Assembly: GCA_022710725.1 (NCBI GenBank)
Contig: JAKLGK010000007.1
Coordinates: forward strand, 1 to 64,000
Direction: 5' to 3'
DNA length: 64,000 nt
From: Verrucomicrobiota bacterium
Lineage (GTDB): Bacteria > Verrucomicrobiota > Kiritimatiellia > CAIQIC01 > JAGNIJ01
Part shown: in pieces, positions 2,063 through 39,400 of the stretch
Layout of the letters: every line of letters begins with the position of its first letter
Position numbering within the stretch: the first letter of the stretch is position 1
The notes under the pieces: model-generated
Told to the model about the DNA's origin: nothing
Database searches by the model: none
Seen by the model: the letters and a program-made list of their open reading frames with translations, nothing else
Made by a program: the position numbers and the translations under genes

Positions 2063-2662
2063 ATGAATGCGTTTTCTACGGCTCCCGACCCGTGGAGGCA
2101 ATTCTTCCGGGACTATGACGGTCTCATCTTCTTTGTGGTCCGCTGGCCCAAGTGGCGGTTCGCGCAGCCTGTTCAGGAAGACCTGGGCCAGCGTATCCGC
2201 GAGGATGTCGTCAAGGCGGTCACACCGGACCAGCCGGCGGCCCTGATCAAGACCCTCATCCGGCGGATTGCCGTGCGCCGATGCATCGACGAGGTCCGCC
2301 GGCAGGTCAGCGAGCGGGCGGTGCTGGTGCCCCTTTTCGAGAAACCGGAAGAGGACCAAGCGGATCCCCTCCGCGATGCTCCGGCGGGGAAGGAATGGGA
2401 TCCGAGGCGGCCGATCCTGCTTGCCGAAACCAGCGAGATGCTTTCCAAGCTGCTGGGCCAGCTGGGCGCTCTGTGCCAGCAGGTTATACAATCGTTTTAC
2501 CGGGATGACCTGGCCTACGAGGAAATAGCTGCAAAACTGGCCCTTCCGGCCAGTACCGTCGGCGTCCGGCTGTTCCGATGCCTCGAGAAAGCGAGGCGGC
2601 TGATCAGGATGAATGCTGTTTTCAGAAATTTTTTCCGATCGGCTTCCGACTTACTGGAGTAG
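2063..2662 (+). CDS. ECF-like sigma-70 family RNA polymerase sigma factor
   Basis: The 199-residue protein has a sigma region-2-like N-terminal part with an aromatic/basic segment (FFVVRWPKWRF, near residues 20-30). Its C-terminal region 4 helix-turn-helix carries DDLAYEEIAAKLALPASTVG (near residues 150-169) followed by a basic recognition helix. There is no region 1.1 or 3, as in ECF sigmas. The ATG at 2063 is preferred over the adjacent GTG at 2060. Neither has a clear ribosome site, so translation may be weak or regulated. The next gene begins 2 bases after the stop and encodes a one-TM protein, the usual place for an anti-sigma factor. This gene is the likely switch for the block that follows. 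Confidence 0.85.
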   Translation: MNAFSTAPDPWRQFFRDYDGLIFFVVRWPKWRFAQPVQEDLGQRIREDVVKAVTPDQPAALIKTLIRRIAVRRCIDEVRRQVSERAVLVPLFEKPEEDQADPLRDAPAGKEWDPRRPILLAETSEMLSKLLGQLGALCQQVIQSFYRDDLAYEEIAAKLALPASTVGVRLFRCLEKARRLIRMNAVFRNFFRSASDLLE

Positions 2663-2664
2663 AA

Positions 2665-5324: not shown

Positions 5325-5360
5325 GGCGGGGAATGTGCCCGCGAAACCGAGGATAATGTA

Positions 5361-6563: not shown

Positions 6564-6698
6564 GAGGAATGAATGAGAACCTATCTTCGATTTCCCGGCG
6601 ACCGTTCTTCGTACGTCCTCGACAACGGGATCGGGCATCATGACCAGCCAGGCCGCCGGCCACCAACTTGGCCGCCTGGAAGCCGGAAGGATTATCAC

Positions 6699-9326: not shown

Positions 9327-9365
9327 CCTCGGCGGCATAGAGACAGGGAAACGCGCGGGGGAGGC

Positions 9366-14432: not shown

Positions 14433-14545
14433 TCCGGCGCGACAGGACGGCCGGCGGCCATTTCGGCTGCGGCGCGGGCTTTCATTCAGGGCTTTCTTCT
14501 GGTAAATGGCAGGCAGAAGGAGTGGTTGACGTCGGCGTCCGCGTG

Positions 14546-20376: not shown

Positions 20377-21951
20377 ATGATGAGGCGCGATTCGTTGTAT
20401 TTGGGAGCCATCGGATGGCTGGCCTTGTTGCTGACCATCCTGCTGGCCGGAATGCTCGAATGGCGGCAGGGGAGCCCGCTGATCGGCGCCCTGTGGATCG
20501 TCGGCTTCTTTTTCGTCGCGCTGAATCTGTGCTACCTCGTGGTGGTTTGCCTCGTCTCGATCCGGCTGCGCGCCCGCCGCCTGCCGGAGGCGGAGCCGGT
20601 CCGCGCCGTCCGCACCGCCATCCTGTATGTCGTCAAGAACGAACCCGGCGATTTCGCCGGGCGTATGCGGCAAACGATGGCCGGCAACGACGGCCCGCTC
20701 AACGAGCTGTGGCTGATATCGAATTCCGACGACGAGGCGCTGCGGCGGAGCGAGGAGCGCGTCGTTCGGGCGCTGCGCGAGGAGTTCGGGCCGCATCGCG
20801 CGCACCATTACCGACCGGGCTCCAACCCCCTCGGCCGGAAGCATGTGGCCATCGCGCAATGGGCGCGCGCCCACCGCGAATACGACTATTTCATTGTCTG
20901 CGACGCCGACTCCATTCTCTATCCCGGCGCCGTCGCCCGGCTGGTGGCCAAGGCGGAGCATCCGGCCAATCGCCGGTTCATGGTGTTCCAATCCCACCTG
21001 CAGATCGCGGGCAGCCGGACGCGGTTTGCCCGTTTTCTTGAGCCGGGTCAGAACATCGTGCAGAAGGCCTTCTGCGAGGTGAACTTCGCCCTCTTCGGCC
21101 AGTCGCCCTACTATGGCCACGGCGCGCTCATCCGGCGCGCCCCGTTCGCCCGGCTGCGCGTGCCGGCCGCCGTGCTCAGCCACGATCTGTGGGACACGGC
21201 GGCCATCGACCGCGCGGGGTGGGGCATCGCCTTCTGCTCCGACGTGCATACGCACGAAATGTTCCCGGCCGACTATCTCGAGTTCCGCCGGCGGAGCCGG
21301 CGATGGATCGTGGGCACCCTGGAGGCCTGGCCCCTGCTGTTCCGCCGCCGGCTTACGCTCGGCACGCGGTTTCATCTCGCCCTGGCCAACTACATCTACA
21401 TCGTGCAGCCCGTGTTCCTGCTCTGGGTGCTCCTGGGCCTGCTGGCCCACAACAGCTTGGCGGGCCCGCTGCTGAAAACACAGGCCGTGTTCCTGGGCGG
21501 GTCGGCGGCGCTGGATTTCGAAATGGGGGGTATCTCGGTGGCCACCGTGGGCCTCATGTGGGCCTACAAACAGCGCTTCGCGCGCGGCCTCCGCGAGGCG
21601 CTGCTGGTGTTGCGGGATGCCGCGACCGGCACGGCCGTGCTCTTGAACAACCTGTTCTACGACTCCATCTTCATCCTGCTGGCGCCCTGGACCGCGCGAA
21701 GCTGGCGGCCGATGCGCAAGGAGGCCGTGCCGGAACGGACGTTCGCGGAATGTTTCCGCGCCATGCTGCCGAGCACGGCTTTCGGCGCGGCCCTGTTGGC
21801 CGGCAGCCTGGCCCTGGATTCCCGGTGGACGCTCTATTCCAGCCCGATCCTCTTCAGTTTCCTGTTCGGCAGCGCGCTCGTGTACTGGACCTCCAGGCCC
21901 GCGCGGGCGGCCTGCCCGGACAACGGCGCCGGGATAAGGGGGGCCGTATGA
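20377..21951 (+). CDS. OpgH/MdoH-like family 2 membrane glycosyltransferase
   Basis: The 524-residue protein has two N-terminal membrane segments (about residues 8-30 and 38-60). The GT-A catalytic domain carries a DxD motif (D176-A-D178 in IVCDADSIL), the acceptor region YYGHGALIRRAPF, and the processive-type LSHDLWDTAAIDRAGWGI and RRSRRWIVGTLEAW blocks. These line up with the osmoregulated periplasmic glucan glucosyltransferase OpgH. At least four more membrane segments follow. It is shorter than E. coli OpgH (about 850 residues). A beta-glucan or related product exported to the periplasm or surface is plausible. The start at 20377 has GAGGGG upstream, and the stop overlaps the next gene (ATGA at 21948). 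Confidence 0.8.
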   Translation: MMRRDSLYLGAIGWLALLLTILLAGMLEWRQGSPLIGALWIVGFFFVALNLCYLVVVCLVSIRLRARRLPEAEPVRAVRTAILYVVKNEPGDFAGRMRQTMAGNDGPLNELWLISNSDDEALRRSEERVVRALREEFGPHRAHHYRPGSNPLGRKHVAIAQWARAHREYDYFIVCDADSILYPGAVARLVAKAEHPANRRFMVFQSHLQIAGSRTRFARFLEPGQNIVQKAFCEVNFALFGQSPYYGHGALIRRAPFARLRVPAAVLSHDLWDTAAIDRAGWGIAFCSDVHTHEMFPADYLEFRRRSRRWIVGTLEAWPLLFRRRLTLGTRFHLALANYIYIVQPVFLLWVLLGLLAHNSLAGPLLKTQAVFLGGSAALDFEMGGISVATVGLMWAYKQRFARGLREALLVLRDAATGTAVLLNNLFYDSIFILLAPWTARSWRPMRKEAVPERTFAECFRAMLPSTAFGAALLAGSLALDSRWTLYSSPILFSFLFGSALVYWTSRPARAACPDNGAGIRGAV

Positions 21952-23855
21952 GCATCCTTTCTCGCTGCCGCGCTGGCGCGGCCTTCGCGGTCGCGTTTCT
22001 CGCCGCGGGCACGGACGGCGCCTGGGCCGGCCCCACGGAGTTCCTGTTCGAACCCAATCCCGTCTACGCGGCCACCAATTGGGAATTCACCACGGACCTG
22101 CGCATCCGGGCGCCGGACCGGAACCCGGGCGCGTTCCAGATCGTTCTCGTCTACGAGCCCGATGTGCTGCGCATCCTCGACGTTACGCCCAGCCCGAGCA
22201 CGCCCTTCTATTCCTATTTCCAGGCCGACGCGGCCTCGTTCTCCAAGGGCTATACCCGGATCGCGGCCCTCCAGACGCAGGATCTCTCGGACTCCATGGA
22301 CGAAGTGGTGCTGCGCGTGCAATGGGCCGCCATCGGGTCCGGGGCGCGGACTTCGGATGTGTCCGTCTACGTGGAGGGCCTCGTGGACGTCCGTTGGCGC
22401 GAGACCAGCGGCGCCGGCACGCCGCTGGCCGTGGACGTGCGCGGGGTGGACACGAATGCCAACACGATCCCGGACGCCTGGGAAGAAGGGCGCTACGGCG
22501 CGCCCACCAACGCGGCCCCCGGTTCGGACGAGGACGGCGACGGCTATACGCTGGAGCAGGAATACTGGGCCGACACGGACCCGCGCGACCCGGACTCGCT
22601 GCCCCTGGTGGGAGTGGCCACGGCCGGCCCCAACGCGGCCGTCTTCTGCGAGGGGTCGCGTCTGCGCCGCTATCACTTCGACGTGCAGGACTCCCTGGTT
22701 TCCGGAACCTGGTCGAACTGGTTCTCCGTGCAACCGTCTGGCGACGGCACCATCTGGCTTCTCGATCATGACCGGGAGACCAACCGCTTCTACCGGCTGC
22801 GCGTTCAGCTTCCGATCTCCGGGGCGGCGGGCGGCGGCGAGACCAACGAGCATTGGACCTCCGACGCGGTGACGGACTTCACGGCCCTGCAGCCCCTGCT
22901 GTACCGGCTGCATCCCGGCGGCGCGTACACGCTGACGGCTCTGGACCTGCTGTCTTCCGAGCGGTTTGAATTCCGGTTCAACCTGGCCAATGGAAGTTCC
23001 AGGGCTAATACCGATTGGGCCGGCGGCATGCTGTGGTTCGACGGGACCCCGTTCGATGCGTCCGTCAATGGCATTGTGCTCGGCTTGTCCGCGTCCGGCA
23101 CAACCGAAGTCAAACTGGAGGCCACGGATACGGGCGGCCGGAAGGCGGTGGTCATACTCGGCGCATTAAGCCGTAATGAACGGAATTACAGGGTGCCGGC
23201 GGCCGAACTGCTCGCGGCCGGCGGCAGCGGCTTCGATCCGGGGCACATCCGAGCCATCGCGGTTGTGGTAGACGGCGCGGTGGCCGGCTGGTCCCGGGCG
23301 AGCGGGTTGGTGAATGTCCGGACGAAGGGAGTTCCATACGACCAGAAGTCGAATATTCTGCTGTCCGGGACGGCCTACGACACCAACGCGCTGTCGTCAT
23401 TCGGCTCGTACTACCCGGCATGGGTGCCAGACGGAGGGAATACGAGCGAGGAAGGGTCGAACGGAATTATCGTCGCCACGGGCATGCCGGAAGCGCGCGG
23501 ATTCCGCTATGAATATGATCTGACTGCGGATCCCGGCGCGTTTGCATACGTTGCAATCCATCGCGGGGGGGTGCTCCTCTTTCGCCTCCCAGCCATCTAC
23601 ACGTTTGCAGCCAAGGGCACAGCAGGAGCGCGAATGCGAGTGACGTATAGGGATGGAGATGAACACATGGGGCAGGTTGTCGTGCTTCTGGAAGAGGGAT
23701 TTCGAAACTACAGCATTGACTTCAGCACCATGGCTCCCGCGGATTTTGATCGTTTGCGTGTGAAAGAGCTTACATTCGTTCAGGATTGGACCATAGGCAC
23801 GCCGTTCCTGGAAGATGCCGTGCAGATTGAGACCCCCGGCTTGGACTATCCCTAG
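21948..23855 (+). CDS. Secreted cohesin-like domain protein with TSP3 repeats
   Basis: The 635-residue protein has a signal peptide (to about residue 28). A beta-sandwich at residues about 30-165 has the cohesin pattern (FTTDLRIRAPDRNPGAFQIV, LVYEPDVLRILDV, GSGARTSDVSVYVEG). TSP3-type Asp repeats follow near 168-215 (DEDGDGYTLEQEYWADTDP). The remaining 400 residues are beta-rich with no family that I recognise. Cohesins bind dockerins, and the RHS protein two genes upstream and the four beta-helix proteins downstream all carry dockerin-like repeats. This could be the receptor for them, which is inference. The start overlaps the glycosyltransferase stop by four bases. Confidence 0.7.
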   Translation: MSILSRCRAGAAFAVAFLAAGTDGAWAGPTEFLFEPNPVYAATNWEFTTDLRIRAPDRNPGAFQIVLVYEPDVLRILDVTPSPSTPFYSYFQADAASFSKGYTRIAALQTQDLSDSMDEVVLRVQWAAIGSGARTSDVSVYVEGLVDVRWRETSGAGTPLAVDVRGVDTNANTIPDAWEEGRYGAPTNAAPGSDEDGDGYTLEQEYWADTDPRDPDSLPLVGVATAGPNAAVFCEGSRLRRYHFDVQDSLVSGTWSNWFSVQPSGDGTIWLLDHDRETNRFYRLRVQLPISGAAGGGETNEHWTSDAVTDFTALQPLLYRLHPGGAYTLTALDLLSSERFEFRFNLANGSSRANTDWAGGMLWFDGTPFDASVNGIVLGLSASGTTEVKLEATDTGGRKAVVILGALSRNERNYRVPAAELLAAGGSGFDPGHIRAIAVVVDGAVAGWSRASGLVNVRTKGVPYDQKSNILLSGTAYDTNALSSFGSYYPAWVPDGGNTSEEGSNGIIVATGMPEARGFRYEYDLTADPGAFAYVAIHRGGVLLFRLPAIYTFAAKGTAGARMRVTYRDGDEHMGQVVVLLEEGFRNYSIDFSTMAPADFDRLRVKELTFVQDWTIGTPFLEDAVQIETPGLDYP

Positions 23856-23960
23856 GCTCCCGACATCCTGACCAACAGGAGTTGGCCGCGTGCGCGCGAA
23901 GAGAGGCCCCCGGGCTGGTGAATAGAAGGTTTTCTTCGTGAATCCATCGACAAGAAAACG

Positions 23961-26840
23961 ATGAAAAGTGTTCGACAGCTTGGAGCCGCCGCGTCGGCGC
24001 GGGCGACGTGTTTAGCTGGTTGCTTGCTAATCCCCTGTGCGGCGCTGGCCGACACGCACTTTGTCAGCGCCAGCGGGTCCGCGCCGCTGGCTCCCTACAC
24101 CAATTGGGCGCACGCGGCGTCGAGCATTCAGGACGCCGTCGACGAGGCGGCGCCGGGCGACACCGTGCTGGTCGCCGACGGCGTCTATACCCAGGGCGGC
24201 CGCGCGGTCTTTGGGACCATGACCAACCGGGTAGCCATCGACAAGCCCATCGTGGTCCGCAGCGTCAACGGCGCCCAGTCCGCCGCCATTGCGGGCCGGG
24301 GGGCCTCGCTCGGCAGCAACAGCGTCCGTTGCGTCTACGTGGGCAGTAATGCAACGCTGGAGGGCTTCACCCTGGCCGGCGGGGGGACCCATATAACGGG
24401 AGATCGGCATCACGAATTGAGCGGCGGCGGCGCCTGGTGCGAAACCGGCGGCCTCGTGCGCCTCTGCGTCATCTCCAGCAACGTGGCCGGCTATGGCGGC
24501 GGCGTGTATGGCGGCGCCGTGCGGGACAGCATGCTCTGCGGCAACGAAGCCAATACCGGGGGCGGCGCCTGCAGCAGCCGGGTCGAAAACTGCACGGTGG
24601 TCAACAACCGCGCATTCCATGCCGGCGGCGGCATCAGCGCGGGGACCATCGCCAACAGCATCGTCTATTACAACGTCGCCAGTTCGGACCCGAACTGGCA
24701 GCCGGGGACGCTCTCGTACTGCTGCACCCTGCCGCTGCCGCCGGGCGACGGCAACATCTCCGACGAGCCCGGCATCTTGAGCTTCGACAATCCCCATCTC
24801 GTGTCGACTTCGCCCTGCATCGATGCCGGAGACAATGGCCTGGTCGCGGGCGACGCGGATTGCGACGGAGAGGGCCGCATCGAAGGTTCACGCGTGGACA
24901 TGGGATGCGATGAGGTCTGGTCCGGCGGCATCACCGGGGCCCTGTCCGTCGCGATCTCCGCGGTATCTACGCAGGCGATAACGGGCTATGAACTACGCTT
25001 CCGCTCCGTCATCGCGGGGCGCGCCGAGGGATACGAATGGATCCTGGCCGGCAGTTCGTTGCCCGGCGCGCCGGTGGTCGCGCGGAATTGGAGTGTCACC
25101 GGAACCTTCCCGGTGGTCCTTCGCGCCTGGAACACGGGCGCGGCATGCTGCGCGACGACGACGGTCGCCATTTTGGCCGGCTTCACCAACTACGCCTCTC
25201 CGAGGGGCGGGCACCTTCCCCCCTACACGAACTGGGCGTCGGCCGCCACGTCCATCCAGGCGGCGGTGGACGCCGTGCAGGTGGCGGGCGGTGTCACCAT
25301 GCTGGCGACGGGCGTCTACGAGCAGGGGAGCTACCTGACGGCGCTCATGCGGTGCCGCTTCGGGATCGACAAGCCGATGACGGTTCGGGCCCTGGATCCG
25401 ACGCCATGGGCGACGGTCATCAGGGGGCAGGGGCCCCTGGGAACCAGCGCAATACGGTGCGCCTACCTCACGGCCGGCGCCGTGCTGGAAGGTGTCACGC
25501 TGACGGAAGGCCACACCCGCGCGGAGGGCGCGCTGGGGGATGGCGAACTGGCGGGCGGCGGGGTCTTCTGCGACGGCGGCGGAACGGTGTCGAATTGCCT
25601 GATCGCGGGAAATGCCGCGCACGATGGCGGGGGGAGCTTCGGGGGCACGCTGGCCGGATGCACAATCGGCAGCAACACGGCCGCGCAATTCGGGGGCGGC
25701 GCATTCGGCAGCATGCTGCGCGATTGCCTCGTCCATGACAACTCGGCCGGTTGGGGAGGCGGCTGCAGCGAGGGGACCGCCGAGCGGTGCATGATCTTCC
25801 GCAACACCGCGACCAACTACGGGGGCGGCGTGTTCAATGTGCGTATTTCGGACTCGGTCGTTTTCAGCAACCACGCATCGGCGGGGGGCGGGGCGTGCGC
25901 GGGCATCCTTCGCAACTGCACGGTTGCCGGGAACAGGGCGGCCCTCCTGGCCGGCGGGACGCTGCTGGGCGAGGCGGAAAACTCGATTGTCGTCGACAAC
26001 ATGGACGCGTGGGGCGCCTCCAATTACAGCGGCACGGCTTTTTTCTACTCGTGCACGACACCGATGCCGACCAACGGAACGGAAAACCAGTCCTCCGCGC
26101 CCGGCTTCGCGGACGGGCCGGCGCACACCTATCGGCTGCAGCCCTGGTCGCCCTGCATCGACCGGGGCATGAACCAGTCCTGGCGGGAAGTCGCGATCGA
26201 CGTGGAAGGCGCCCCCCGCATTGTGAACGGACGGATTGACCTGGGGGCCTATGAATTCCATTTCGGCGCCGCCCTGCGGGTGTTCCTCCAGGGGCCGTAC
26301 AGCTCGAACCTGGACGCCATGACCACAGCCCTGGCGAGCAACCTTCCGTTTGCCTCGCCCTATGCCGCCGACCCCGCCGCCGTTACGGAAATTCCATCCA
26401 ATGTAGTGGATTGGGTGCTGGTCCAGGCGCGCCCGGGGCTCACCAACGCGCCCACATTTACCCGCAGCGCCTTCTTGCGCAGCGATGGCGCCGTGGTGTC
26501 CTCCGCCGGCGAGACCAGCCTGGTTGTCGAGGTGTCGCCGGGGACGACCAACTACCTGGCGATCAGCCATCGCAACCATCTCTCGGCCCTGTCGGCCGCG
26601 CCCATTGTGTTCACGAACCAGGCGGTGCAATACTCGTTCACCACCGGAGCGGGCCAGTACTACGGCGGGACCAACGCCGCCGCGCAACTGGAACCCGGAG
26701 TCTGGGGCCTGATGGCCGGGGATGCGGATGGGGATGGAAAAATCACGGCGGTTGACCGATCGATTTGCACGTCGCAGGTCGGGAGGACCGGTTATCTCGG
26801 CGGCGATTTTGATTTGGATGGTATTGTTTACGACAAATGA
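23961..26840 (+). CDS. Secreted right-handed beta-helix protein 1 with C-terminal dockerin-like repeat
   Basis: The 959-residue protein has a signal peptide (ending CAALA). Its architecture is: beta-helix module 1 (about 30-315), a PKD-like linker (about 320-410), beta-helix module 2 (about 415-775), a C-terminal beta domain, and an Asp-rich dockerin-like pair ([15 protein letters not shown] and GDFDLDGIV). The helix turns show the Asn/Gly ladder of polymorphic-outer-membrane-protein-like proteins (GYGGGVYGGAVRDSMLCGN; NCTVVNNRAFHAGGGISAG). Such proteins are surface or secreted adhesins or polysaccharide-active proteins, and no catalytic site is apparent. It is GC-rich, unlike the next two genes. 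The stop overlaps paralogue 2 (ATGA at 26837). Confidence 0.85.
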   Translation: MKSVRQLGAAASARATCLAGCLLIPCAALADTHFVSASGSAPLAPYTNWAHAASSIQDAVDEAAPGDTVLVADGVYTQGGRAVFGTMTNRVAIDKPIVVRSVNGAQSAAIAGRGASLGSNSVRCVYVGSNATLEGFTLAGGGTHITGDRHHELSGGGAWCETGGLVRLCVISSNVAGYGGGVYGGAVRDSMLCGNEANTGGGACSSRVENCTVVNNRAFHAGGGISAGTIANSIVYYNVASSDPNWQPGTLSYCCTLPLPPGDGNISDEPGILSFDNPHLVSTSPCIDAGDNGLVAGDADCDGEGRIEGSRVDMGCDEVWSGGITGALSVAISAVSTQAITGYELRFRSVIAGRAEGYEWILAGSSLPGAPVVARNWSVTGTFPVVLRAWNTGAACCATTTVAILAGFTNYASPRGGHLPPYTNWASAATSIQAAVDAVQVAGGVTMLATGVYEQGSYLTALMRCRFGIDKPMTVRALDPTPWATVIRGQGPLGTSAIRCAYLTAGAVLEGVTLTEGHTRAEGALGDGELAGGGVFCDGGGTVSNCLIAGNAAHDGGGSFGGTLAGCTIGSNTAAQFGGGAFGSMLRDCLVHDNSAGWGGGCSEGTAERCMIFRNTATNYGGGVFNVRISDSVVFSNHASAGGGACAGILRNCTVAGNRAALLAGGTLLGEAENSIVVDNMDAWGASNYSGTAFFYSCTTPMPTNGTENQSSAPGFADGPAHTYRLQPWSPCIDRGMNQSWREVAIDVEGAPRIVNGRIDLGAYEFHFGAALRVFLQGPYSSNLDAMTTALASNLPFASPYAADPAAVTEIPSNVVDWVLVQARPGLTNAPTFTRSAFLRSDGAVVSSAGETSLVVEVSPGTTNYLAISHRNHLSALSAAPIVFTNQAVQYSFTTGAGQYYGGTNAAAQLEPGVWGLMAGDADGDGKITAVDRSICTSQVGRTGYLGGDFDLDGIVYDK
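26529..26749 (+). repeat. Direct repeat: C-terminal domain cassette, copy in paralogue 1
   Basis: Ungapped 221-base segment coding for the region before the dockerin-like repeat. It matches 29564-29784 at high identity and 35998-36218 at lower identity, all exactly the same length. The paralogue 3 copy (32919-33136) is 3 bases shorter. The near-identity of the paralogue 1 and 2 copies contrasts with the divergent helix modules and GC content around them, which suggests gene conversion or recombination. Confidence 0.75.
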
Positions 26841-26962
26841 ATAATGGCGAAAAGCTGCTGTTTTCGGCGGTGATAATCTGCATGTATCTGATCACTGCGG
26901 CATCAGCCGACACGCTTTACGTCTCGACCAACGGCCTTCACCAGACGCCGTTCACGAACTGG
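26837..26962 (+). repeat. Direct repeat: signal-peptide cassette, copy in paralogue 2
   Basis: 126 bases from the start codon to the first FTNW block. They align without gaps to 33223-33348 at the start of paralogue 4, with scattered mostly synonymous changes. Paralogues 1 and 3 have unrelated signal regions. Confidence 0.75.
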
Positions 26963-29878
26963 ATGATCGCTGCACGCACTATCCAGGATGCAGTCGATGC
27001 GGCAACAGATGGCGACATGATTTTGGTGAGCAACGGGATTTACAACTTAGGTGGACGGGAGGCGGGCGGTGAGCATGTGCTGACCAATCGCGTGATAATT
27101 GACAAGCCCATCACTCTGCAGGCTGTAGGAGGTCCCGAACACACAATCATTATGGGATCAAAAGATCCAAGTAGTGATGGATATGGCGATGCTGCTGTGC
27201 GCGGTGTCTGGATGGTAGACGGCTCGATCATTGTGGGCTTTACAATCGAAGGAGGCTCGACGAGGACATCGATTGGCGCTGATGATAATGCGTACGGTAG
27301 TGGCGCTTTTTGCCAAAGCACAAACGCGGTGATATCCAATTGCGTGTTAAAAGGGAATTCGGCCGCCGGTATTGGCGGCGGGAGTTATGGCGGCACTTTA
27401 ATCCATTGCGCAATCACGTCGAACAGAGCGAGCTATGGCGGGGGAGTGTATGGGAGCGCGGTGCTTGCCAGTGCATTCGATGGAAATTGGGCCTCGGACG
27501 GCCTCTATGGAAGTAATGGGGGTGGCGCCGATGGAAGCGTCTTACAAAACTGCATGCTGTCGGGGAATCGCGCCGACTATGGCGGTGCTGCCAGTGAAAG
27601 CACATTATGCAATTGCTTTCTTAGCGGAAATACGGCGTTTCTAGGTGGCGGCTCTTATGAATGCACTCTGAACAATTGCACGGTGGTCGGGAATTCCGCT
27701 GAATATGATGGGGGATCGCATGGGGATCGTCTGTACAACTGCATTGTATATTACAATGATGCTCCCTCGGGGCCCAATCATGGCGGTTCGACGTTTGAGC
27801 ACAGTTGTTCTGCGCCGCTGCCGAGCGGCCCCGGGAACATTAGTCGTGAACCTGGCTTGGCAAGCGCGTCTCATTTGGCATTGGCATCGCCTTGCAAGGG
27901 CGCCGGCAGCAGCTTGTACGCATCAGGATATGACATCGATAGAGAGCCTTGGCTAAGCCCCCCGTCGATGGGGTGCGATGAATTGCATATTGGCTCCATC
28001 ACCGGGGCGTTGAATGTCAGCATATGGGCTTCCTATACCAATGTTGCGGTCGGGATACCTGTGCAGTTCCGAGCAGATGCTGTCGGTCGGACAACGGCTA
28101 GTGTGTGGGAATGGGGCGATGGGGTGGTGTCTAGCAATCAAGTGTATGCCGAGCATGTTTTCACCTCTACTGCCGACTACGAAGTGGTATTTCGTGTTTA
28201 TAATGAAAGCAAGCCATCAGGGGTTGCTGCCGGCGTTTCAGTTCATGTTGCGAGTCGTATGGTTCACTATGTGAACCTCAACAGCGAGACCCCTTCGGCG
28301 CCGTTTGAATCTTGGGAGACTGCTGCAACCAATATTCAGGACGCCATTGATGCTGTTTCTCAGATTGGCGCATTGGTCCTTGTAACAAATGGCATCTACG
28401 CAACGGGTGGCCGGATGATCTATGGGGCTTTGACCAATCGCGTGGTCGTAATCAAACGCATCACGCTGCAAAGCGTTAATGGTCCGGCCGTGACTGTCAT
28501 ACAAGGGGCGCATGATCCATTCACGACTAATGGTAATTCGGCGGTGCGGTGTGCCTATTTGGGGGCGCATGCTATCATGTCGGGCTTCACGCTAACGAAC
28601 GGCTCAACACGCACCGAAGGCGACTATCCCAGCGACTATCGAGGCGGGGGTGTATGGTGTGAAGCGGGCAGCATTGTATCCAATTGCATTGTGGCCGGGA
28701 ACACGGCGTATTTTGACGGAGGCTGCGATGGCGGAACCATAAACGATTGCCTCCTAACGGGAAACATGGCGCTTGGAGGCCTCGTAGGATGGTTTGGTGG
28801 TGGCGGCTCAGGTGGTGGCACGCTGAATAGGTGTATACTGAGCGAGAACTATTCAGGGGACCAGGGGGGCGGCGCTCTCTATGGAACACTAAATAATTGT
28901 TTACTTGTTCACAATTCTGCCCGCACAGGAGGGGGCGCGTACTTGTGCAGTTTAAACAACTGTACCGTGGTTGGCAATACCGCTTCAAGTGAAGGTGGCG
29001 GGGTATATGATGGGGAACTGAACAATTGCATTGTCTACTCCAATGCTGCACCGACAGGCTCAAATCACAACGATTCCGTGTTCATCAGAATCAATAACAG
29101 TTGCACAATTCCTGCGTTGGCCGCATGCAGTAACATAACTAGCGACCCCAAGCTTACAGACCAATTTGAACTTACGGCGAATTCTCCCTGCATCGATGCG
29201 GGCGTGAATCAGGAAGGCATGGCCGAGACAAGGGATTTAGCTGGGGTATCGCGGATCATCAATGGCAAGGTCGATATGGGAGCTTATGAGTTCCATTATA
29301 ATGCCACTTTGCAGGCATTTCTGCAGGGCCCTTACTGCACAACCTTGCACACCATGAAGGTAATCCTGCCGAGCAATATGCCCTTTTCCGCTCCGTATGC
29401 CGGAGATCCGCGCGCCGTTTTGCAGATTCCGTCCAATGTGACCGATTGGGTTTTGCTGGAGATGCGTTCCGACCCGAGCAATTCGGCGATCTTCTCCGAA
29501 AGCGCCTTTCTGAGAAACGATGGACGGATTATCAATGCGGCAGGCGAAACGAATATCATCATCGAGGTGTCGCCAGGGACAACGAACTACCTGGTCATCA
29601 GCCACCGAAATCACCTGTCCGCCATGTCGGCCCAGCCCATCGTTTTCACGAACCAGGCGGTACAATACTCGTTCACCACCGGATCGGGCCAGTACTACGG
29701 CGGGACCAACGCTGCCGCGCAACTAGAGCCCGGCGTGTGGGGGATGATGGCCGGGGATGCGGATGGGGATGGAAAGATTACGGCCGCGGACAGATCGATA
29801 TGTGAGTCGCAACGGGCGCAGGCTGGCTACTTGGCTGGTGATTTCACCTTGGATGGGGTCGTGACGGATGAGGATTAG
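26837..29878 (+). CDS. Secreted right-handed beta-helix protein 2 (paralogue), AT-richer
   Basis: The 1013-residue paralogue has the same architecture as its upstream neighbour: signal ([19 protein letters not shown]...), helix module, PKD-like linker, second helix module, C-terminal domain and dockerin-like ending ([15 protein letters not shown]). A sample line (27601-27660) is 45% GC against 73% in a comparable line of paralogue 1 (24481-24540). The first 126 bases match the start of paralogue 4 (33223) at high identity. The last roughly 220 bases match paralogue 1 without gaps, so module exchange has occurred. It begins inside the stop codon of paralogue 1 and overlaps paralogue 3 by 11 bases, so it is probably translationally coupled. 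Confidence 0.85.
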   Translation: MNNGEKLLFSAVIICMYLITAASADTLYVSTNGLHQTPFTNWMIAARTIQDAVDAATDGDMILVSNGIYNLGGREAGGEHVLTNRVIIDKPITLQAVGGPEHTIIMGSKDPSSDGYGDAAVRGVWMVDGSIIVGFTIEGGSTRTSIGADDNAYGSGAFCQSTNAVISNCVLKGNSAAGIGGGSYGGTLIHCAITSNRASYGGGVYGSAVLASAFDGNWASDGLYGSNGGGADGSVLQNCMLSGNRADYGGAASESTLCNCFLSGNTAFLGGGSYECTLNNCTVVGNSAEYDGGSHGDRLYNCIVYYNDAPSGPNHGGSTFEHSCSAPLPSGPGNISREPGLASASHLALASPCKGAGSSLYASGYDIDREPWLSPPSMGCDELHIGSITGALNVSIWASYTNVAVGIPVQFRADAVGRTTASVWEWGDGVVSSNQVYAEHVFTSTADYEVVFRVYNESKPSGVAAGVSVHVASRMVHYVNLNSETPSAPFESWETAATNIQDAIDAVSQIGALVLVTNGIYATGGRMIYGALTNRVVVIKRITLQSVNGPAVTVIQGAHDPFTTNGNSAVRCAYLGAHAIMSGFTLTNGSTRTEGDYPSDYRGGGVWCEAGSIVSNCIVAGNTAYFDGGCDGGTINDCLLTGNMALGGLVGWFGGGGSGGGTLNRCILSENYSGDQGGGALYGTLNNCLLVHNSARTGGGAYLCSLNNCTVVGNTASSEGGGVYDGELNNCIVYSNAAPTGSNHNDSVFIRINNSCTIPALAACSNITSDPKLTDQFELTANSPCIDAGVNQEGMAETRDLAGVSRIINGKVDMGAYEFHYNATLQAFLQGPYCTTLHTMKVILPSNMPFSAPYAGDPRAVLQIPSNVTDWVLLEMRSDPSNSAIFSESAFLRNDGRIINAAGETNIIIEVSPGTTNYLVISHRNHLSAMSAQPIVFTNQAVQYSFTTGSGQYYGGTNAAAQLEPGVWGMMAGDADGDGKITAADRSICESQRAQAGYLAGDFTLDGVVTDED
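29564..29784 (+). repeat. Direct repeat: C-terminal domain cassette, copy in paralogue 2
   Basis: Partner of 26529-26749, aligned without gaps. It encodes the conserved [35 protein letters not shown] blocks and the start of the calcium repeat. The GC-rich codons resemble paralogue 1 more than the rest of this gene. Confidence 0.75.
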
Positions 29879-32800
29879 CCCACAGTCGAGTGTTCATCGT
29901 TCCAGTTCTGGGCCGAGAATTCTGTGGTTTGCAATGTTGCTGATGACGGCTCGGGGGTCAATGCTTACTCTTTATGCCGACACCCATTACGTTGACCTCT
30001 ACAACCCGACCCCTCTTCCACCGTTCACCAACTGGCCCGGCGCGGCGAATAGTATCCAGGCCGCCATCGACGAGGCTTCCGATGGCGACACTGTACTAGT
30101 CAGCAATGGCATGTATGTCGCAGGGGGGCGGACGCTCCCTGGAGTCAGCCCGGTCAATCGAGTCATCGTAACGCAAAGCATAACCGTCGCCAGTGTCAAT
30201 GGGCCGTCCGCTGCCGCGATCGTGGGACAAGGACCGCTGGGGACTTCGGCTGTGCGTTGCTTGTACCTGAACCATCCCGGCGCGCTGGTTTCGGGATTCA
30301 CCCTCACCAATGGGCATACCGCCACTATGTTTGGAACCGCTGGTGGCGGCGCCTATATTGAGAGCGGGGTTCTCTCAAACTGCATTGTCGCTTCCAGCCA
30401 TGCTAATGATTATGGAGGAGGGGTCCACGGTGGCATGCTCTACGACTGCTGGCTCAAGGGAAACACAGCCGGGAAATGGGGCGGCGGCGCAATCTACAGC
30501 GTCCTGTCCAACTGCACTATCGAGGCGAATACAGCAGCGTGGGGAGGCGGCGCCAGGAGTTGCACTCTTTACAACTGCCGCGTTATTGGAAACCTGGCCA
30601 CGAACTCCGGTGGCGGAGCAATAGGTGGAACCATCTATGACAGTGAGCTTCGAGGGAACACCGCAATTTCATATGGTGGAGGGGTTTACGGCGCAACAAT
30701 CTTTCGCAGCCAGATTGCCAATAACAGCGCGCTGGCTGGAGGAGGTGTGGGGGAAGATTGTGAGGTGCATGCCAGTGTTCTGTCCTCCAACATTGCCCAA
30801 TATGGGGGCGGCGCAGGAGCAGCGCGCCTGTATTCCTGCCGACTGGAGCACAATGTTGCTACAGGCACTGGTGGTGGCGCAAGCGGCGGATCCCTCTTCA
30901 GTTGCGCGGTCTATAACAACCAGGCGCAGTGGGGCGGAGGGACTCAGAGTTCGTCGAACTGGAACTGCAGCATTGTGGCCAATACAGCGAGCGGCTCCGG
31001 GGGCGGGGTTCGGTTTTCATGGTCGCGCAATTGCATCATTTACGACAACGATGCGCCCGTCCAGCCGAATCACGAAGGTGGTGATACCGCCTACTCATGC
31101 ACCACACCCGCGATTTCGGCGTCGGGGAATATGAGCGCGGCGCCTCACCTCGTTACTCCCTTCCGCCTGGCCTCCTCCTCCCCTTGCCTGGGTGCCGGCA
31201 GCGAGGAGTACATGGTGGGCGCGGATCTGGATGGGGAGCCGTGGCGCATCCCTCCGGCCATGGGTTGTGACGAGTTGTATCCTGCGAATCTAACGGGCTC
31301 TGTCATCCTGTCCGTTATCGGAGAATTCGCGCAGGCGGCAACGGATTTTGCGGTTGTCTTTCGTGCGGACACCCTCTCCGCCGTGGCCTCAAATCTCTGG
31401 GATTTCGGTGACGGCGTGCGGCTAACAAACTATCTGCATGCCAGCCATGCCTGGTCAAGCGGAGGGCTATACACCGTATCCGTCACGGCCTACAATCTGA
31501 ACCACCCAACCGGAGTCACGGCCGCCGCGACGATTATGGTGGTGGATCACCCTGTCCATTACGTTAATGTGCATTCGCCTTCACCCGCATATCCCTTTAC
31601 CAACTGGACCACTGCCGCGACAACGATTCAGTCGGCAGTGAACGCTGCGATCCCTGGCAGTCTCGTGCTGGTAACCGACGGCATTTATAACGCTGGCGGC
31701 GCGATTACGCCGCAGGGCATATTGTCGAACCGGGTGGTGATCACCAATGGTGTAGCGTTGCGAAGCGTGAACGGGCCGGATTCGACTTTCATTGTGGGCG
31801 CAGGGCCGTTGGGGAGCAATGCCATGCGGGGTGTTTTTCTGTCCAATCAGGGCCGCCTCGACGGATTTACAATCACCAATGGTCACACGCGTTTTACGGA
31901 TGGTGTGATCGCCGCCGACAAGTCGGGCGGCGGCATCTTTGCTTCCGGGGGGATTGTTACTAATTGTATCATCACGGGTAACTCCGCACGGACCGCGGGC
32001 GGCGCCCACTTCGGCGAGTACTACAATTGTGGATTCTTCGGGAACCGTGCCCTGAATTACGTTATCTGGGGTGTCATCTTCGACGGCAGCGGATATGGCG
32101 GTGGCGTCAACCAGGCCATGCTTCACCGCTGTTGGATAGAAGATAACCTTGCGGAAGACGGGGGCGGAGGCGCGGGCAGCAGCCAGCTCTTCAACTGCAT
32201 CGTCAGGAACAATCGAGCCTTCACCGGATACGAAGACAAGGGCATTTCAGCCTCTGGCGGCGGCGCGTACAGAAGTAGCCTTTATGGGTGTACGGTGATC
32301 AGCAATTCGGCCGCCTTGATTGGCGGCGTGGACAATTGTCGGGTTGTGAACTCCATTGTCTATTACAACACAGCTTCGCAGGCCCAGTGGGGACACAATT
32401 ACACGACCAACAGATACTCTGCCAGCACCTTCTCGGGCTCTTGCACCACGCCACATCCCGCCGATGCGGGCAACATATCCTCCCCGCCGGAGTTCGCTGA
32501 TGACACCGGTGGTGATTATCATCTCGCGTGGCATTCGTCCTGCGTTGATGCGGGCGTATTTTTTGAGGGGATTGAGGGGTTGTCCGATTACGACGGCCGG
32601 CCACGTGTGTTTCATCGGCCGGATATTGGAGCTTATGAGTACGTCATGGAAACCGACATCCGCGTGAAATTGGCGGGAGCATCAGGGCCATTTTCCGGTG
32701 ACATGCGAACCGACCTGGCTCGACTTGGTTACGTGCCGATGCATTCACTCTATGCCGCAACCCAGATACCTCGCGGTGAAATGCCTTCGAATGCAACGGA

Positions 32801-33230
32801 CTGGATTCTGGTTGAACTCTTGGATCCCCAGTCAGGCGTGTCGATGGCCGCGGAACAGGCGATATTGCGCTGCGACGGCACAGTCCTTAGCGACCAAGGG
32901 GGTGCAGGTCTTCATCTGGAAGCGTCTCCCGGCTCCTACTTCCTCACGATCAAGCATCGGAACCATCTATCCGTCATGTCCGCGCAGCCGCTGGATTACA
33001 CCAACGCCACTGTTTTCTATGATTTCACCACAGGCCCCGAAAAGGCGCGAGACGGAACGAACAGCCTCGTGGAAGTCACGCCCGGCGCCTGGGGCATGAT
33101 CGCCGGCGACGCGGACGGGGACGGGAAGATCACGGCCGTTGACCGATCCGTTTGTACATCGCAAGTCGGACGAACAGGCTATCTCGCCGGTGATTTCAAT
33201 TTGGATGGTGTGGTGACGACGAATGAATAA
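29868..33230 (+). CDS. Secreted right-handed beta-helix protein 3 (paralogue), longest
   Basis: The 1120-residue paralogue has a longer basic N-terminus before its hydrophobic signal ([18 protein letters not shown]). Two beta-helix modules with a PKD-like linker (about 475-560) and a C-terminal [18 protein letters not shown] dockerin-like repeat follow. The helix turns carry GGG[AV]...NC[TI]V ladder residues at roughly 22-24 residue spacing. Its start ATG is 11 bases inside paralogue 2, and its stop overlaps paralogue 4 by eight bases, so all four are coupled without separate ribosome sites. Its C-terminal domain is 3 bases (one residue) shorter than the other copies, which are the same length as each other. 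Confidence 0.85.
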
Positions 33231-33348
33231 TTGCGAAAAGCTGCTGTTTTCAGCGGTGATAATTTGCCGGTTATTGATCACTGCCGCATCGGCGGATACG
33301 CACTATGTCTCCACCAACGGGCTGCACCAGACGCCGTTCACGAACTGG
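33223..33348 (+). repeat. Direct repeat: signal-peptide cassette, copy in paralogue 4
   Basis: Partner of 26837-26962. The two copies are the same length and differ by scattered substitutions. Together with the C-terminal cassettes it shows that the array evolved by duplication of paralogues 2 and 4 and exchange of end modules. Confidence 0.75.
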
Positions 33349-36315
33349 GTTTTTGCCGCGACGAATATCCAGGATGCGATTGATGCGGCTTCTGATGGTG
33401 ACGAAGTACTGGTGAGCAATGGGGTGTATGCAACCGGGGGGCGGGTGGTATATGGAGCCATGACCAACCGTGTGATGATTACCAATGCGGTGACGGTTCA
33501 AAGCATCAACGGCCCCACCGTAACCATCCTTCAGGGCGCGGGCCCCGTTGGGAGCAATGCTGTGCGGTGCGCCTATGTGGGTGCCCATGCGAGTCTAGTG
33601 GGATTTACGTTGACGAACGGCGCGACATGGTCAAGCGGTGACGAATTTATTTCGCAAAGCGGTGGTGGCTTATGGTGCGAACCGGGCGGTGAAATATCGA
33701 ATTGCGTGATCACCGGAAACTCTGCGGCCTCACACGGTGGTGGGGTATACCAAGGCTCGCTCCACAACTGCACAGTCGATGGGAATTACGCAGGTTGGTG
33801 GGGCGGCGGAGCGTATAAAAGTGCGCTGCATGACTCCACCGTTTCATCGAATTCCTCATTCGCGAACGGCGGCGGTGCCTACTTCTGCTCGCTCTCCAAC
33901 TGTACAGTCACCGGCAATTCCTCCGAGGGTGGGGGTGGAACCTTGGGCGGAGCGCTCTACAACTGCATACTTTCCAGGAACTATGCCGATGTCGGTGGTG
34001 GATCGTTCGGGGGGGAGTTGTATAATTGTTCACTGACCGATAACTCCGCTAACTGGGGCGGTGGATCATCGCAAGGTGAACTGAACAACTGCACCCTCTT
34101 CGCAAACTGTGCGCGATTGGGCGGTGGTGGAACTGAGTCGGGCCGGCTTCGAAACTGCATTATCTGGTTCAACTCCGCAGCTAGCGGGGCCAACTGGAAT
34201 GGAGGCACACTCAACTACTGTTGCACCATGCCGATCCCGCCAGGCGAGGGCAACCTAGGCTGCGATCCCCTGCTTGCCAGCGCCTGGCGCCTTGGTGGCG
34301 CATCGCCGTGTATCGGCCGAGGTAGCGCTGCGTATGCCAGCGGTGTGGATATAGATGGTGAATCATGGGCTACTCCTCCCTCCATGGGTTGTGATGAACG
34401 ATCCGGCTCCGTGACAGGCGATATATCCGTCGCCATCATGGCAAAATATACAAACTTCGCGGTGGGGTTCCCGGTTGAATTCACTGCGCAGATAGAAGGC
34501 CATCCCGCAGAGAGTTGGTGGATTCTTGGGATGGACGGTGTGGTCAGCAATAGACCCATAATTAACCACTCGTGGGCTTCGACCGGAACGTATGTGGTAA
34601 TCCTGAAGGCGATCAACGAAAGTTATCCTGCTGGCAATTCGGCTTCGGCAACGGTCAACGTGGTGCTTGCGCCTGTACACTATGTCAACCAGTCGAATAC
34701 TTTCCCCGACTCCCCCTTCACATCATGGCACACAGCAGCGACCACCATTCAAGAGGCGGTCGATGCAGCCACGGTTCCAGGGGCAACCATTCTGGTGACC
34801 AACGGGCTTTATGATACCGGTGGTCGCGTAATAAACGGAGACATGACCAACCGGGTTGTCATCGATAAACCGGTCGTTGTGCGAAGCGTGAACGGACCGT
34901 TGGTAACGTTCATCCGGGGGAGGGGCCCGATCGGCAATGGAGCGGTGCGCTGTGCGTACGTCGGCCGAAACGCTGAATTGGCGGGGTTCTCCCTGACAGG
35001 TGGTTGCACAATGGCAATGACGGATGAACGCACGGAGCGATGCGGCGGGGGCGTGTGGTGCGAGAGTCAGGCCGTGGTGTCCAATTGCGTGATAACGGGC
35101 AATTCGGCTTCTTCGGCGGGTGGTGGGGTGGCGCAGGGATCTTTGTTCAATTGCACTGTTTCTGGAAATTCCGCGAGCGGCGCCGGCGGCACCTACGTTA
35201 GCTTTCTCCATAGCTGCATTCTTTCGAACAACTCCGCCACCGGCGAAGCAGGGGGCGCATATCAAAGCATGCTCGACGGCTGCATTCTCGTTGATAACGC
35301 GGCCCGCGAAGGGGGTGGTGTTATACAAAGTATCCTGTTCAACTGCACACTGTTGGGCAATTCGGCCACGGACTCGGGTGGTGGGGCATTCCAAAGCACT
35401 CTCTTCAACTGCACGGTTGTGGGCAATCGAGCCGCAAGCGCAGGCGGGACGCTTCAGGGCTCGGCGAACAATTGCATCATATTTAACAACACTGGCGGAA
35501 ACTATGTGCAGGGAACTATTCAATACAGTTGTACAACGCCGATGCCGTCTGGGACGGGAAACATCACGGATACCCCCCATTTCAGAGCATCAAATGATTT
35601 TCATCTGGCTGCAAATTCTCCGTGTGTCGATCGGGGCCAGAACCAGCAGTGGATGGTTGGGGCCTGTGATTTAGATGGCAGCCCGCGCAGTGTCAATGGA
35701 ACAGTGGACATGGGGGCGTATGAATTTCATTTCGACGGAAATCTGAAGGCGGTTCTCCAGGGGCCGTATGACACGAATGCCCACTTGATGGCGACATTGT
35801 TGAGCAGCAATGTTCCACCAACTTCTCCTTATGTGGCCGATGCGCGGACAGTTGGAAACATACCGTCCAATGTCACGGATTGGATTATGTTGCAGGTTCG
35901 GCCGGGCATTACCAATAATCCTGTTTACGCTCGATCGCTGTTCCTCCGAAATGATGGCAGGATTCTTTCGGATCAGGGCGATACAAATCTACTGATCGAG
36001 GTCTCGCCGCTGACGACCAATTACTTGGTCGTCTCCCACCGCAACCATCTTTCCGCCATGTCCGCCCAACCCATTATTTTCACTAACCAGCAAATCTCGT
36101 TCGATTTCACGAGCAGTTCGGACCAGTATTATGCCGGAACTAATGGCGCGGTTGAACTGGAGCCGGGCGCGTGGGGGATGATCGCGGGCGATGCGGATGG
36201 GGATGGGAAGATCACGGCGGTGGACAAGGCAATGTGCGAGGGGCAGGAAGGACAGACGGGTTATCTGGCCGGGGATTTCAATCTGGATGGGTTTGTGAGC
36301 ACAAACGAGCCGTGA
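33223..36315 (+). CDS. Secreted right-handed beta-helix protein 4 (paralogue)
   Basis: The 1030-residue paralogue has a signal ([19 protein letters not shown]...) nearly identical to that of paralogue 2. The helix 1 - PKD - helix 2 - C-domain - dockerin layout is the same ([27 protein letters not shown]). The paralogues differ mostly in the surface turns of the helices, as expected for variable adhesin faces. Translation must re-initiate at 33223 inside the stop region of paralogue 3. It closes the array. The next gene, a clan-CD peptidase, begins after a 116-base gap on the same strand. Confidence 0.85.
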
Positions 36316-36431
36316 GCTAGGTCGGAAGAGGTTGCGGAGATGGCCTTGATTGGCCACATGCGGGTGCCGGATTCATGTGTCGATTTGACATGGCTGTGAA
36401 TACAATGAGCCCAGTCCTGCGAGGGGGATGT

Positions 36432-39400
36432 ATGAAAAAAGTACTGGCAGCTTTAGCGCTTCTTTGCTGGGGGGCCGGCCTCCAGGGCCGGGCTATTTCA
36501 AACGACCTGTACTTCGTCACCAACAACATGGGCCGAGTCACCTCCGTCCCCAACGGCGAGGTTATTCTTTATCCGCAACTGGTGGTCAGTCCTCCACGAA
36601 AGACATTGGTAGCGCAAAGCACACAGGTGATGACCGCACAAGGTTCAACAAATCCCATCACCTGGTTCATGATCGAGCGGCCGAGCGGCGGAACGATTAC
36701 GGTGACCAGCCCCACGTCCGTGACGTACCAGGCGGGCGCGACTTCCGATTGCGTGGACATCGTCGAGGCCTGGGACGGCGGGAATATGTTCGGTCGCGCG
36801 TACTTGAACGTGATCAGCCCGGCGGAAGTGGCGGCGGCGGGCAAGGCGATCATCGTGGCGGGCCGCAAAGGCGCCGATGATCCGTTGTGGCCGGCGACGG
36901 ACTACCTGGCCAACAATGCGTTCAATACGTTGCTGTACCGGGGCTACGGGAAGGAGCATGTGCAGTACCTCAACCCGGTCCCTGGGCGCGACGTGGACGG
37001 CAATGGAACGGCCGACGATATTGATCTTGAATCGACCCTCGGCAACGCGCGCCTGACCTTCACCAATTGGGCTGGCAATACGCATAGACTCTTTGTCTAC
37101 CTTGTGGATCACGGCGAGGCGGCCTCCACCAACGGGTACTTCCGGCTCAATGCCGGGGAGACGCTGCCGGGCACAACGCTGAAAGGCTGGCTGGACGACA
37201 TCCAGAACGCCTACACCACGGAAGTCACGGTGGTGGTGGATTGCTGCTATGCCGGGACCCTGATCAACCAGTTGAGCTACACGGGGGTCGCCAGGCGGAT
37301 TCTGATCGCCTCCTCCGGGACCAACGAGCCGGCGTATTTCATCGGGGGCGGGCTGGTGAGTTTTTCCGACGCCTTCTTCGGCGGCATCATGCTCGGCTAC
37401 GACGTGCTGCGGGCCTACGAACAGGCGCGCAGTGCCATGCTGACCTACCAGGGCCCGGCCTACACGGACAACGGGAGCGGAACCGAGGGAACCAATGTCT
37501 GGCTGGGGGCGACGTTCGTGGCGGGGAAGGATATTCCGCAGATCGGGCTGGTGTGCGGCCGCCAGCTGCTGATGGACGGGACGACGGCAAACCTGTGGGC
37601 GCGCGATGTCGTGTCGTCCTATCCGATCGAGCGGGTCTGGTGCATGGTGGTGCCGCCCAGCCACAATCCGACCAACGCGGCGGATCCGGTGCAGGACATA
37701 CCGGAACTCGCCCTCGTCTACACCAACGACCCCGGGCGTTACCACCAGGACTACAACGGGTTCAGCGAAGAGGGAACCTATAAGATCATCTACTACGCCA
37801 AGGACATCTGGGGCAGCGTGTCCCTGCCGCGGCAGAGCTACGTGGACCAGGCGAGTTACGACGAGCGGGTGCTCCTGGTGGCCGGCGACGCCACCAACGC
37901 GGCCGACGGGGCGTCCATCCGGAACATGGCGAACGATGCCTGGCACAGCCTGCTGGAACGGGGTTTCGCGACGAACCGGCTGCGTTACTTGAGCCACGAA
38001 GCGGCTTCGCAGGTCGCCACCTCGCCCTCCCTCTCCGCGATCTCCTATGCCATTACCAACTGGGCGGGCACGACCAACTGGGGCGGACCGGCGGATAGGC
38101 TGACCGTCTACATCGTGGGACAGGGCGCCAACAGCCAACTGCGCCTGAACTCGGGGGAGTGGTTGGCGGCCTCCCAGTTGGATCAATCGTTGGACCTGTT
38201 CCAGGCCTCCAACCGGACCGTGAATGTGATCATGGACTTTGCCGGGTCGGGGGCGTGGATTCCGCAATTGGCGCCGCCGGTGGAGCGGGAGCGGATCAAT
38301 CTGGCCAGCACGCGGGCCGGCGCGCCGTGCCTGCGAGAAGGCGCGGGCGCCTTGAGCTTTTCGCGCTTCTTCTGGCGGGCGGTGTTCCAGGGCAGCAGCA
38401 TCGGAACGGCGTTCGACCAGGCGCGGCGGGCGGTCTGGATGGCCTCGGGTTCATGGGGGCAGACGGCCCAGCTGGACGACAACGGCAATGGCCTGGCGAA
38501 TGAAAAATCCCAGGACCGGTTGATCGCCCAGCTGCGATACATCGGGCCGGCTTTCCGAACGGGCAATGATGCGCCCGTCATTGGCGCCGTGACGCCGGAC
38601 ACGGAATTGACCGGGACCAACCGGTTCATGCTGTGGGCGCAGGACGTGGTGGACGCGGACGGCGTCTCGAACGTCTGGTGTGTGATCACCGAACCCGGAT
38701 ACAACGGCCGCACCGGCGTCGTGGAGGTGGTCCTGGCGTGGAACGCTGGAACGCAGCGATACGAGACGGATTACAGCGGCTTTTCCGCGACAGGGGTATA
38801 CGCCTGCACCTTCTACGCCGGGGATCGGGGCGGCGAAATCTCGTCGCCTCGGCAGGCCGTGATCCGCACGCGCGAGGGGAATGGCGTGGACGCCGACGAA
38901 TATGAAACGGACGACCTGCCGGAACAGGCGAAGCCCCTGCTCGTCGGCGAGACCCAGACGCGAACGCTTCACGTGTCCAACGATGTGGACTGGGCCGTGT
39001 TTTTCGTGGGAGACCAGACCAACTACTTCCACACGATCCGGACGGATCATTTGACCAACACGGTGGACACGGTGCTGGATATTTACCAGGAGGGCGATGA
39101 CGGGGCCTTGACCTTGATCCAGCACGTGGACCAGTGGGACCCGGACCAGGGCGAGTCCTGGGGATGGTATCCGAGCAATGGGGTCTACTTCGCCAGGGTG
39201 AGCTCAACGAATTTCACGGAACCCGGAGGCTATGAACTGGCCTTGACGATAGATATCGGGGGGCCCTTCGACCATCTGCTGGTCCTGGCGATGAACGGCC
39301 TGACGGCGGGGGCCGTGCCGACCGGGGTCAAGGCGCATATGGCGGGTTCAGACCTGCCATTCAATGGGGCCTATTCCGTTGATTTCGTGGGTCCCGACAA

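Follow-up and report, generated by a model that had tools for sequence, protein, structure and literature searches.

Layout of the locus

We have analyzed a stretch of 64,000 nucleotides (hereafter the window) from the 3.9 Mb genome of a Verrucomicrobiota bacterium (assembly GCA_022710725.1, contig JAKLGK010000007.1, positions 1 to 64,000). Between positions 14543 and 40202, all on one strand, the translations correspond to an RHS protein, a membrane-bound family-2 glycosyltransferase (GT2), a cohesin-like protein starting at 21948 (the 21948 protein), four beta-helix proteins and a C13/caspase-like protein (the C13 protein) (Table 1). By eye, every one of them except the GT2 starts with a putative signal peptide, and the beta-helix genes overlap one another by 4–11 bases. 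An initial annotation had proposed that the RHS and the four beta-helix proteins carry dockerins for the cohesin of the 21948 protein, together forming a surface complex similar to a cellulosome. Our analysis indicates that these five "dockerins" are two different kinds of thing. We consider it reasonably probable that the locus contains two neighboring surface systems, one made of the GT2, the RHS protein and the 21948 protein (the trio) and the other of the beta-helix proteins and the C13 protein.

Table 1. Features identified in the window, with their positions and the evidence for each.
Feature	Positions	Strand	Evidence
RHS/YD-repeat surface protein: signal peptide, N-terminal type I dockerin, C-terminal CBM11/CBM30-like region	14543..20356	+	Pfam/NCBIfam; full-length homologues
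Complete type I dockerin, two loop-helix repeats GDANDDGIVDMEDVRHVLQYLV / ADASQDGKIDVDDAFIIARHLG	14645..14806	+	PF00404
CBM11/CBM30-like (galactose-binding-like) repeats, RHS protein C-terminus	19409..20344	+	PF03425, PF21582 just below cut-off
Membrane-bound GT2, DAD motif and RSRRW motif	20380..21951	+	PF13632/PF13641 above cut-off; motifs; hydrophobic segments
Cohesin-like protein: signal peptide, cohesin domain, TSP3 and Ig-like module, 340-residue tail	21948..23855	+	Profile and homology
Cohesin-family domain, residues 27–166 of the 21948 protein	22026..22445	+	Three of five orthologues pass PF00963; hhalign
TSP3 and Ig-like module of the 21948 protein	22440..22817	+	Matches in 52/56 related genomes
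Beta-helix (choice-of-anchor-Q) protein 1	23961..26840	+	NF041518 62.6 bits
Beta-helix protein 2, 4-base overlap with gene 1	26837..29878	+	NF041518 40.8 bits
Beta-helix protein 3, 11-base overlap with gene 2	29868..33230	+	NF041518 23.1 bits, just under cut-off 25; homology
Beta-helix protein 4, 8-base overlap with gene 3	33223..36315	+	NosD 34.6, PKD 26.3, NF041518 35.1 bits
EF1 and helix-less EF2 loop, C-terminus of beta-helix protein 1	26718..26837	+	
EF1 and helix-less EF2 loop, C-terminus of beta-helix protein 2	29753..29875	+	
EF1 and helix-less EF2 loop, C-terminus of beta-helix protein 3	33105..33227	+	
EF1 and helix-less EF2 loop, C-terminus of beta-helix protein 4	36187..36312	+	
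C13/caspase-like protein; likely start ATG 36432 with signal peptide; TSP3 and Ig-like C-terminal module	36375..40202	+	PF01650, motifs, homology
Mature N-terminus of C13 protein, ISNDLYFVTNNMGRVTSVPNGE; aligns to EF2 exit helix of fused and G109 homologues	36495..36560	+	

A conserved trio with a dockerin and a cohesin-like domain

The pair of dockerin-like repeats noticed beforehand at the N-terminus of the RHS protein turned out to be a complete type I dockerin. PF00404 matched residues 35–88 with 28 bits (cut-off 22.9), the sole match to this family in the genome (E=1.1e-7), with loop and helix present in each repeat. Full-length homologues of the RHS protein were found in five other genomes, with 35–41% identity; the one in G128 (bin AlinenLipids_bin-7679) aligns from end to end with the window protein at 36% identity. 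The dockerin is kept in all six orthologues, the five from outside the window scoring 25.4–29.8 bits on PF00404. At the C-terminus of the RHS protein, PF03425 (24.6 bits) and PF21582 (25.5 bits) fall just below their 27-bit cut-offs, and one orthologue (L080) passes CBM30 with 38.5 bits. We also considered that this could be an RHS polymorphic toxin, in which a variable toxin domain follows the core. Here the core is followed by conserved segments and modules similar to the carbohydrate-binding modules (CBM) 11/30, and no toxin family of Pfam or NCBIfam was matched in the protein.

The relatives were recovered when 84,980 named genomes were scanned with the N-terminal part of the RHS protein, and they belong to G128 and to Nitrospinae, Opitutales, Sedimentisphaerales and Desulfobacterium metagenome-assembled genomes (MAGs). 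In all six genomes, including the window, the RHS-dockerin gene is adjacent to a cohesin-like gene or one gene away from it: the cohesin-like gene follows directly in the four newly found genomes, and in G128 and the window one gene intervenes. All six also have a GT2 gene nearby, either upstream, between the other two or a few genes beyond the cohesin gene. In G128 the order is RHS-dockerin, GT2 and cohesin-like with TSP3, with C13 homologues flanking on both sides. When 346 genomes of the class were searched, the RHS N-terminus and strong matches to the cohesin-like domain coincided in the same two genomes only, for which we calculated a chance of 1 in 59,685 if both were independent. A profile of the RHS N-terminus run over 250 genomes of the phylum recovered only the genome of the window, and PF00963 and PF00404 used alone over the relatives did not reveal the trio in other genomes. 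The trio is a rare, conserved unit, documented in six genomes, mostly metagenome-assembled. Two of these loci (L080 6300–6944 and L083 493–1116) also code, just upstream of the GT2, for a small secreted protein that resembles the CBM-like repeats at the RHS C-terminus. In L083 (2875–9232), from the Desulfobacterium MAG, the RHS gene is broken into two reading frames between the dockerin region and the RHS part.

The presence of a cohesin-like domain in the 21948 protein, also part of the initial annotation, was supported indirectly. On sequence grounds we provisionally assign this domain to the cohesin family, because its orthologues match or pass PF00963 and its profile matches cohesins of the class. 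Specifically, three of the five orthologues exceed the PF00963 cut-off of 24.1 (24.7, 25.4 and 25.3 bits), PF00963 is the only family that matches, weakly or better, all six domains scanned in isolation, and hhalign gave P=6e-7 for a six-row profile of the domain against cohesins from other genomes of the class. The search with the 21948 domain alone gave one clear homologue, that of G128 (E=1.9e-11).

Several results weigh against this assignment or against the unity of the trio. The window domain alone reaches only 12 bits on PF00963, and its AlphaFold model from a two-row alignment was of low confidence (predicted local distance difference test, pLDDT, 41), too low to support the nine-stranded jelly-roll expected of a cohesin. 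The GT2 proteins of the window and G128 share only 26% identity over 358 residues. In addition, PF00963 found no match in the full-length 21948 protein or across the whole genome, and phmmer with the single domain gave no matches in the PDB. The six-row profile placed a cohesin at the top of a list of non-significant PDB matches (best E=0.054), and Foldseek with the low-confidence model included the archaeal cohesin 2xdh among its matches, although only at rank 40, and gave nothing decisive. Profile searches for both domains, as the initial annotation had advised, recognized the dockerin of the RHS protein outright and left the cohesin domain of the window and the beta-helix tails below the cut-offs.

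The remainder of the cohesin protein varies between genomes, which is consistent with an adaptor having a lineage-specific far end. Residues 165–290 of the 21948 protein form a TSP3 and Ig-like module common to many surface proteins of the class. The approximately 340 extra residues that end the protein (22818–23852) are absent in the G128 orthologue and match no Pfam family above cut-off. An anchor (S-layer homology domain, sortase motif or C-terminal transmembrane segment) was not evident in the cohesin protein by eye or with Pfam.

Since the RHS protein has a true dockerin, the 21948 domain probably falls in the cohesin family and the two genes lie close together in the six genomes, it is likely that the RHS dockerin binds the cohesin domain of the 21948 protein. 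Our best guess for the function of the trio is a glycan-linked surface assembly, because CBM-like modules end the RHS chain and the layout of the GT2 is that of membrane polysaccharide synthases. The membrane GT2 would probably make or modify an exopolysaccharide, and the secreted RHS protein would present its carbohydrate-binding-like C-terminal modules while its N-terminal dockerin would engage the one cohesin domain in the neighboring secreted protein. The variable C-terminal part of the latter (here TSP3 and Ig-like) could act as a lineage-specific adaptor.

Beta-helix tails and the C13 protein

The four beta-helix proteins do end in the GDF(D/N/T)LDG-type motif that had suggested dockerins to the initial annotation, but the repeats are single, incomplete pairs. 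All four share a C-terminal module of about 190 residues, consisting of a segment that we call HRNHL, one full EF-hand-like repeat (EF1) and the calcium loop of a second one (EF2). The four chains stop at the end of this second loop, at residue 11, 12 or 13 from its first Asp, so that the second helix is missing in every case, whereas the dockerins described in the literature have two loop-helix motifs (PMC8063739). PF00404 gave 8.9–12.3 bits where it reported them at all, below its cut-off. The EF pair is thus part of the C-terminal module and not a free-standing dockerin. The first calcium loop is identical in the four window paralogues, whose modules are only 50–61% identical to that of protein 4. 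The calcium-ligand positions are kept in the four tails, with the exception of the last ligand of protein 1 (which ends one residue short), and also in both G128 tails. The HRNHL module was found in 10 of the 346 genomes. We discarded that the tails were full dockerins truncated by frameshifts: all four stop at almost one place, G128 likewise, and the downstream gene has its own signal peptide.

The protein encoded downstream of them matches PF01650 (25.2 bits, cut-off 22.8) and has the His-Cys pair of the C13 family (DHG 245 / DCC 289), making it a putative peptidase. A second self-match region (37911–38453) lacks the DHG/DCC pair, suggesting one active-looking and one inactive copy. In seven relatives (G005, G136, G187, G243, G259, G261 and G296) a single chain of about 1,600–2,800 residues contains beta-helix, HRNHL, EF pair and C13, or the last three of these. 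Except in G296, a helix-like stretch comes after the second repeat and leads straight into the C13 domain; G296 also continues into C13. The window proteins tile onto these chains, with the same domains in the same order. In G136, beta-helix protein 2 aligns to residues 536–1538 and the mature C13 protein to 1538–2795, both halves meeting on residue 1538; they also meet on a single residue in G187 (1541) and G243 (1035), and in G005 the two alignments overlap by 5 residues. Homologues tie the EF pair to the C13-peptidase protein and not to the 21948 cohesin, of which the four beta-helix proteins had been proposed as clients.

Separate chains, as in the window, appear in G128 and G109. The start of the mature C13 protein (ISNDLYFVTNNMGRVTSVPN) aligns to the EF2 exit helix of the fused proteins, and especially to that of G109, where the window N-terminus SNDLYFVTNNMGRVTSVPN matches SNDMVLLQANLGRKSSVPN, which covers the EF2 helix and what follows it. 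The cut in G128 falls where it does in the window. In G109 it falls earlier, between EF1 and EF2: the beta-helix proteins of this genome terminate once EF1 is complete (...DGEIGPADESIRKTQGP*), and the whole EF2 (GYWRADFNMDGVVDSNDMVLLQAN) comes right after the signal peptide of its C13 protein. In the C13 tree the G000/G128 pair (support 97/95) is separate from G109, and the well-supported branches require a minimum of two transitions between the split and the fused state.

The surroundings of these genes are also conserved. An outer-membrane-barrel-like protein (window 11396–13243, 48–58% identity), a TPR-type protein (9366–11399) and a sigma-factor-like protein (2060–2662) recur beside the homologues in G128, G136, G187 or G243; none of the three was among the genes read around the trio in the four named genomes. 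The region 2060–13243 of the window codes for sigma-factor-like, FecR-like, caspase-like, TPR and outer-membrane-barrel-like proteins, several of which adjoin the beta-helix/C13 proteins in G128, G136, G187 and G243. In one G128 contig (L070 774–6248, G128:C241), FG-GAP and C13 proteins that form one chain in G005 and others appear split within an FG-GAP repeat (VLIGE*DGGINLWRN), which may reflect the same tendency to split ahead of the C13 domain. Finally, the 21948 protein and the C13 protein share the TSP3 and Ig-like module, so both systems may sit at the same place on the surface.

Interpretation and alternatives

The beta-helix proteins and the C13 protein would be two halves of what relatives keep as a single chain, cut within a dockerin-like EF-hand pair so that the second calcium loop stays on each beta-helix protein and its helix on the C13 protein. 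From these alignments, the C13 protein is the likeliest partner of the beta-helix proteins. The halves would most likely re-pair with calcium, and one C13 protein could hold any of the four interchangeable beta-helix parts. We tentatively propose, at somewhat less than an even chance, that fission at different points in separate lineages has converted an internal EF-hand linker into a calcium-dependent connector with four alternative beta-helix partners per C13 protein. Weighing against this, the HRNHL-module tree does not separate one fission from two, and a fission plus a re-fusion could also account for the two changes required by the C13 tree. In G128, different contigs carry the beta-helix genes and the C13 genes, the AlphaFold model of the tail module was of low confidence and Foldseek gave nothing decisive. 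The conserved EF loops could also be remnants, and the helix segment on the C13 protein is short. The last two points lead to a different explanation, doubtful but to be taken seriously, in which the fission left useless EF fragments on both sides and the halves no longer meet; C13 paralogues devoid of any EF segment do exist. However, the identical first loops in paralogues with otherwise divergent modules, the ligands retained in G128, the two cuts in different places of the same EF pair and the termination of all four duplicates within two residues of one spot do not fit it well. Retained ligands and duplicates stopping so close together disfavor simple decay, and for this reason we think that the halves probably still pair.

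It is very improbable that one cohesin protein scaffolds five dockerin proteins (the RHS and the four beta-helix proteins) as in a cellulosome, even if all members lie within 22 kb and have calcium loops, and even if beta-helix/EF proteins also occur in G128, the second genome of the class in which the trio is present. The helix-less tails fail PF00404, and two specificity positions differ (ME/VD in the RHS dockerin, AV or AA in the first repeat of the beta-helix tails). No HRNHL protein was among the genes read at the four trio loci of named genomes, the RHS-dockerin family is missing from 8 of the 10 genomes with the HRNHL module, and five clients cannot sit on one cohesin simultaneously. 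Calcium repeats without paired helices, as seen in the four tails, were precisely what the initial annotation had said would overturn its proposal. A multi-enzyme cellulosome is not likely either, since the genome contains one recognizable cohesin-like domain and one full dockerin instead of a multi-cohesin scaffoldin with many dockerin enzymes. As for the trio, cohesins also occur in proteins without known dockerin partners, and its genes might travel together while the dockerin recognizes something other than the neighboring cohesin. This we regard as improbable, given that the two are neighbors in six of six genomes across distant taxa and that the genome yielded no further cohesin or PF00404 dockerin.

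Relation to known systems

Non-cellulosomal cohesin and dockerin proteins (Peer et al. 2009, cited in PMC6461901 and PMC10066038) resemble the trio in having single cohesin and dockerin domains, large surface proteins, TSP3 repeats and no cellulases. In the trio, by contrast, it is an RHS protein that carries the dockerin, and a GT2 gene accompanies the pair throughout. Another probable pair of cohesin and dockerin recurs in five genomes of the class (L056, L057, L058, L059 and L060 in G052, G055, G017, G035 and G050) as a unit of three genes: a protein of ~450–700 residues, another of ~1,100–1,500 with a dockerin-like C-terminal region and a small cohesin protein over the PF00963 cut-off. Like the trio, it has a large dockerin-like protein followed by a small cohesin protein, and TSP3 in at least G017, G052 and G055, but it has neither RHS nor GT2 and its large proteins are unrelated. 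A 'planctosome' has also been proposed, with peptidases, P-domains and hyaline repeats (PMC6461901). In the literature we found RHS together with dockerin only in the cellulosomal scaffoldins ScaO/ScaP, and no account of the trio. Those of Clostridium alkalicellulosi and Acetivibrio cellulolyticus belong to a cellulosome and combine an RHS repeat, a dockerin and a cohesin with peptidase and galactose-oxidase modules in a single chain (PMC6780208, PMC3413522). Both cases bring the three elements into one system, although here they are divided between two genes, a GT2 accompanies them and there is no cellulosome.

Implications

Non-cellulosomal cohesins and dockerins are mostly orphans. A one-to-one pair fixed by gene order in six distant genomes provides a partner that can be assigned and tested, and the trio suggests a job for it, i.e., keeping the RHS protein on the surface, next to a glycosyltransferase. 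The split between the beta-helix and C13 proteins, if true, would be a natural conversion of an internal EF-hand linker into a connector between proteins, of interest both to protein evolution and to the design of split-domain tools.

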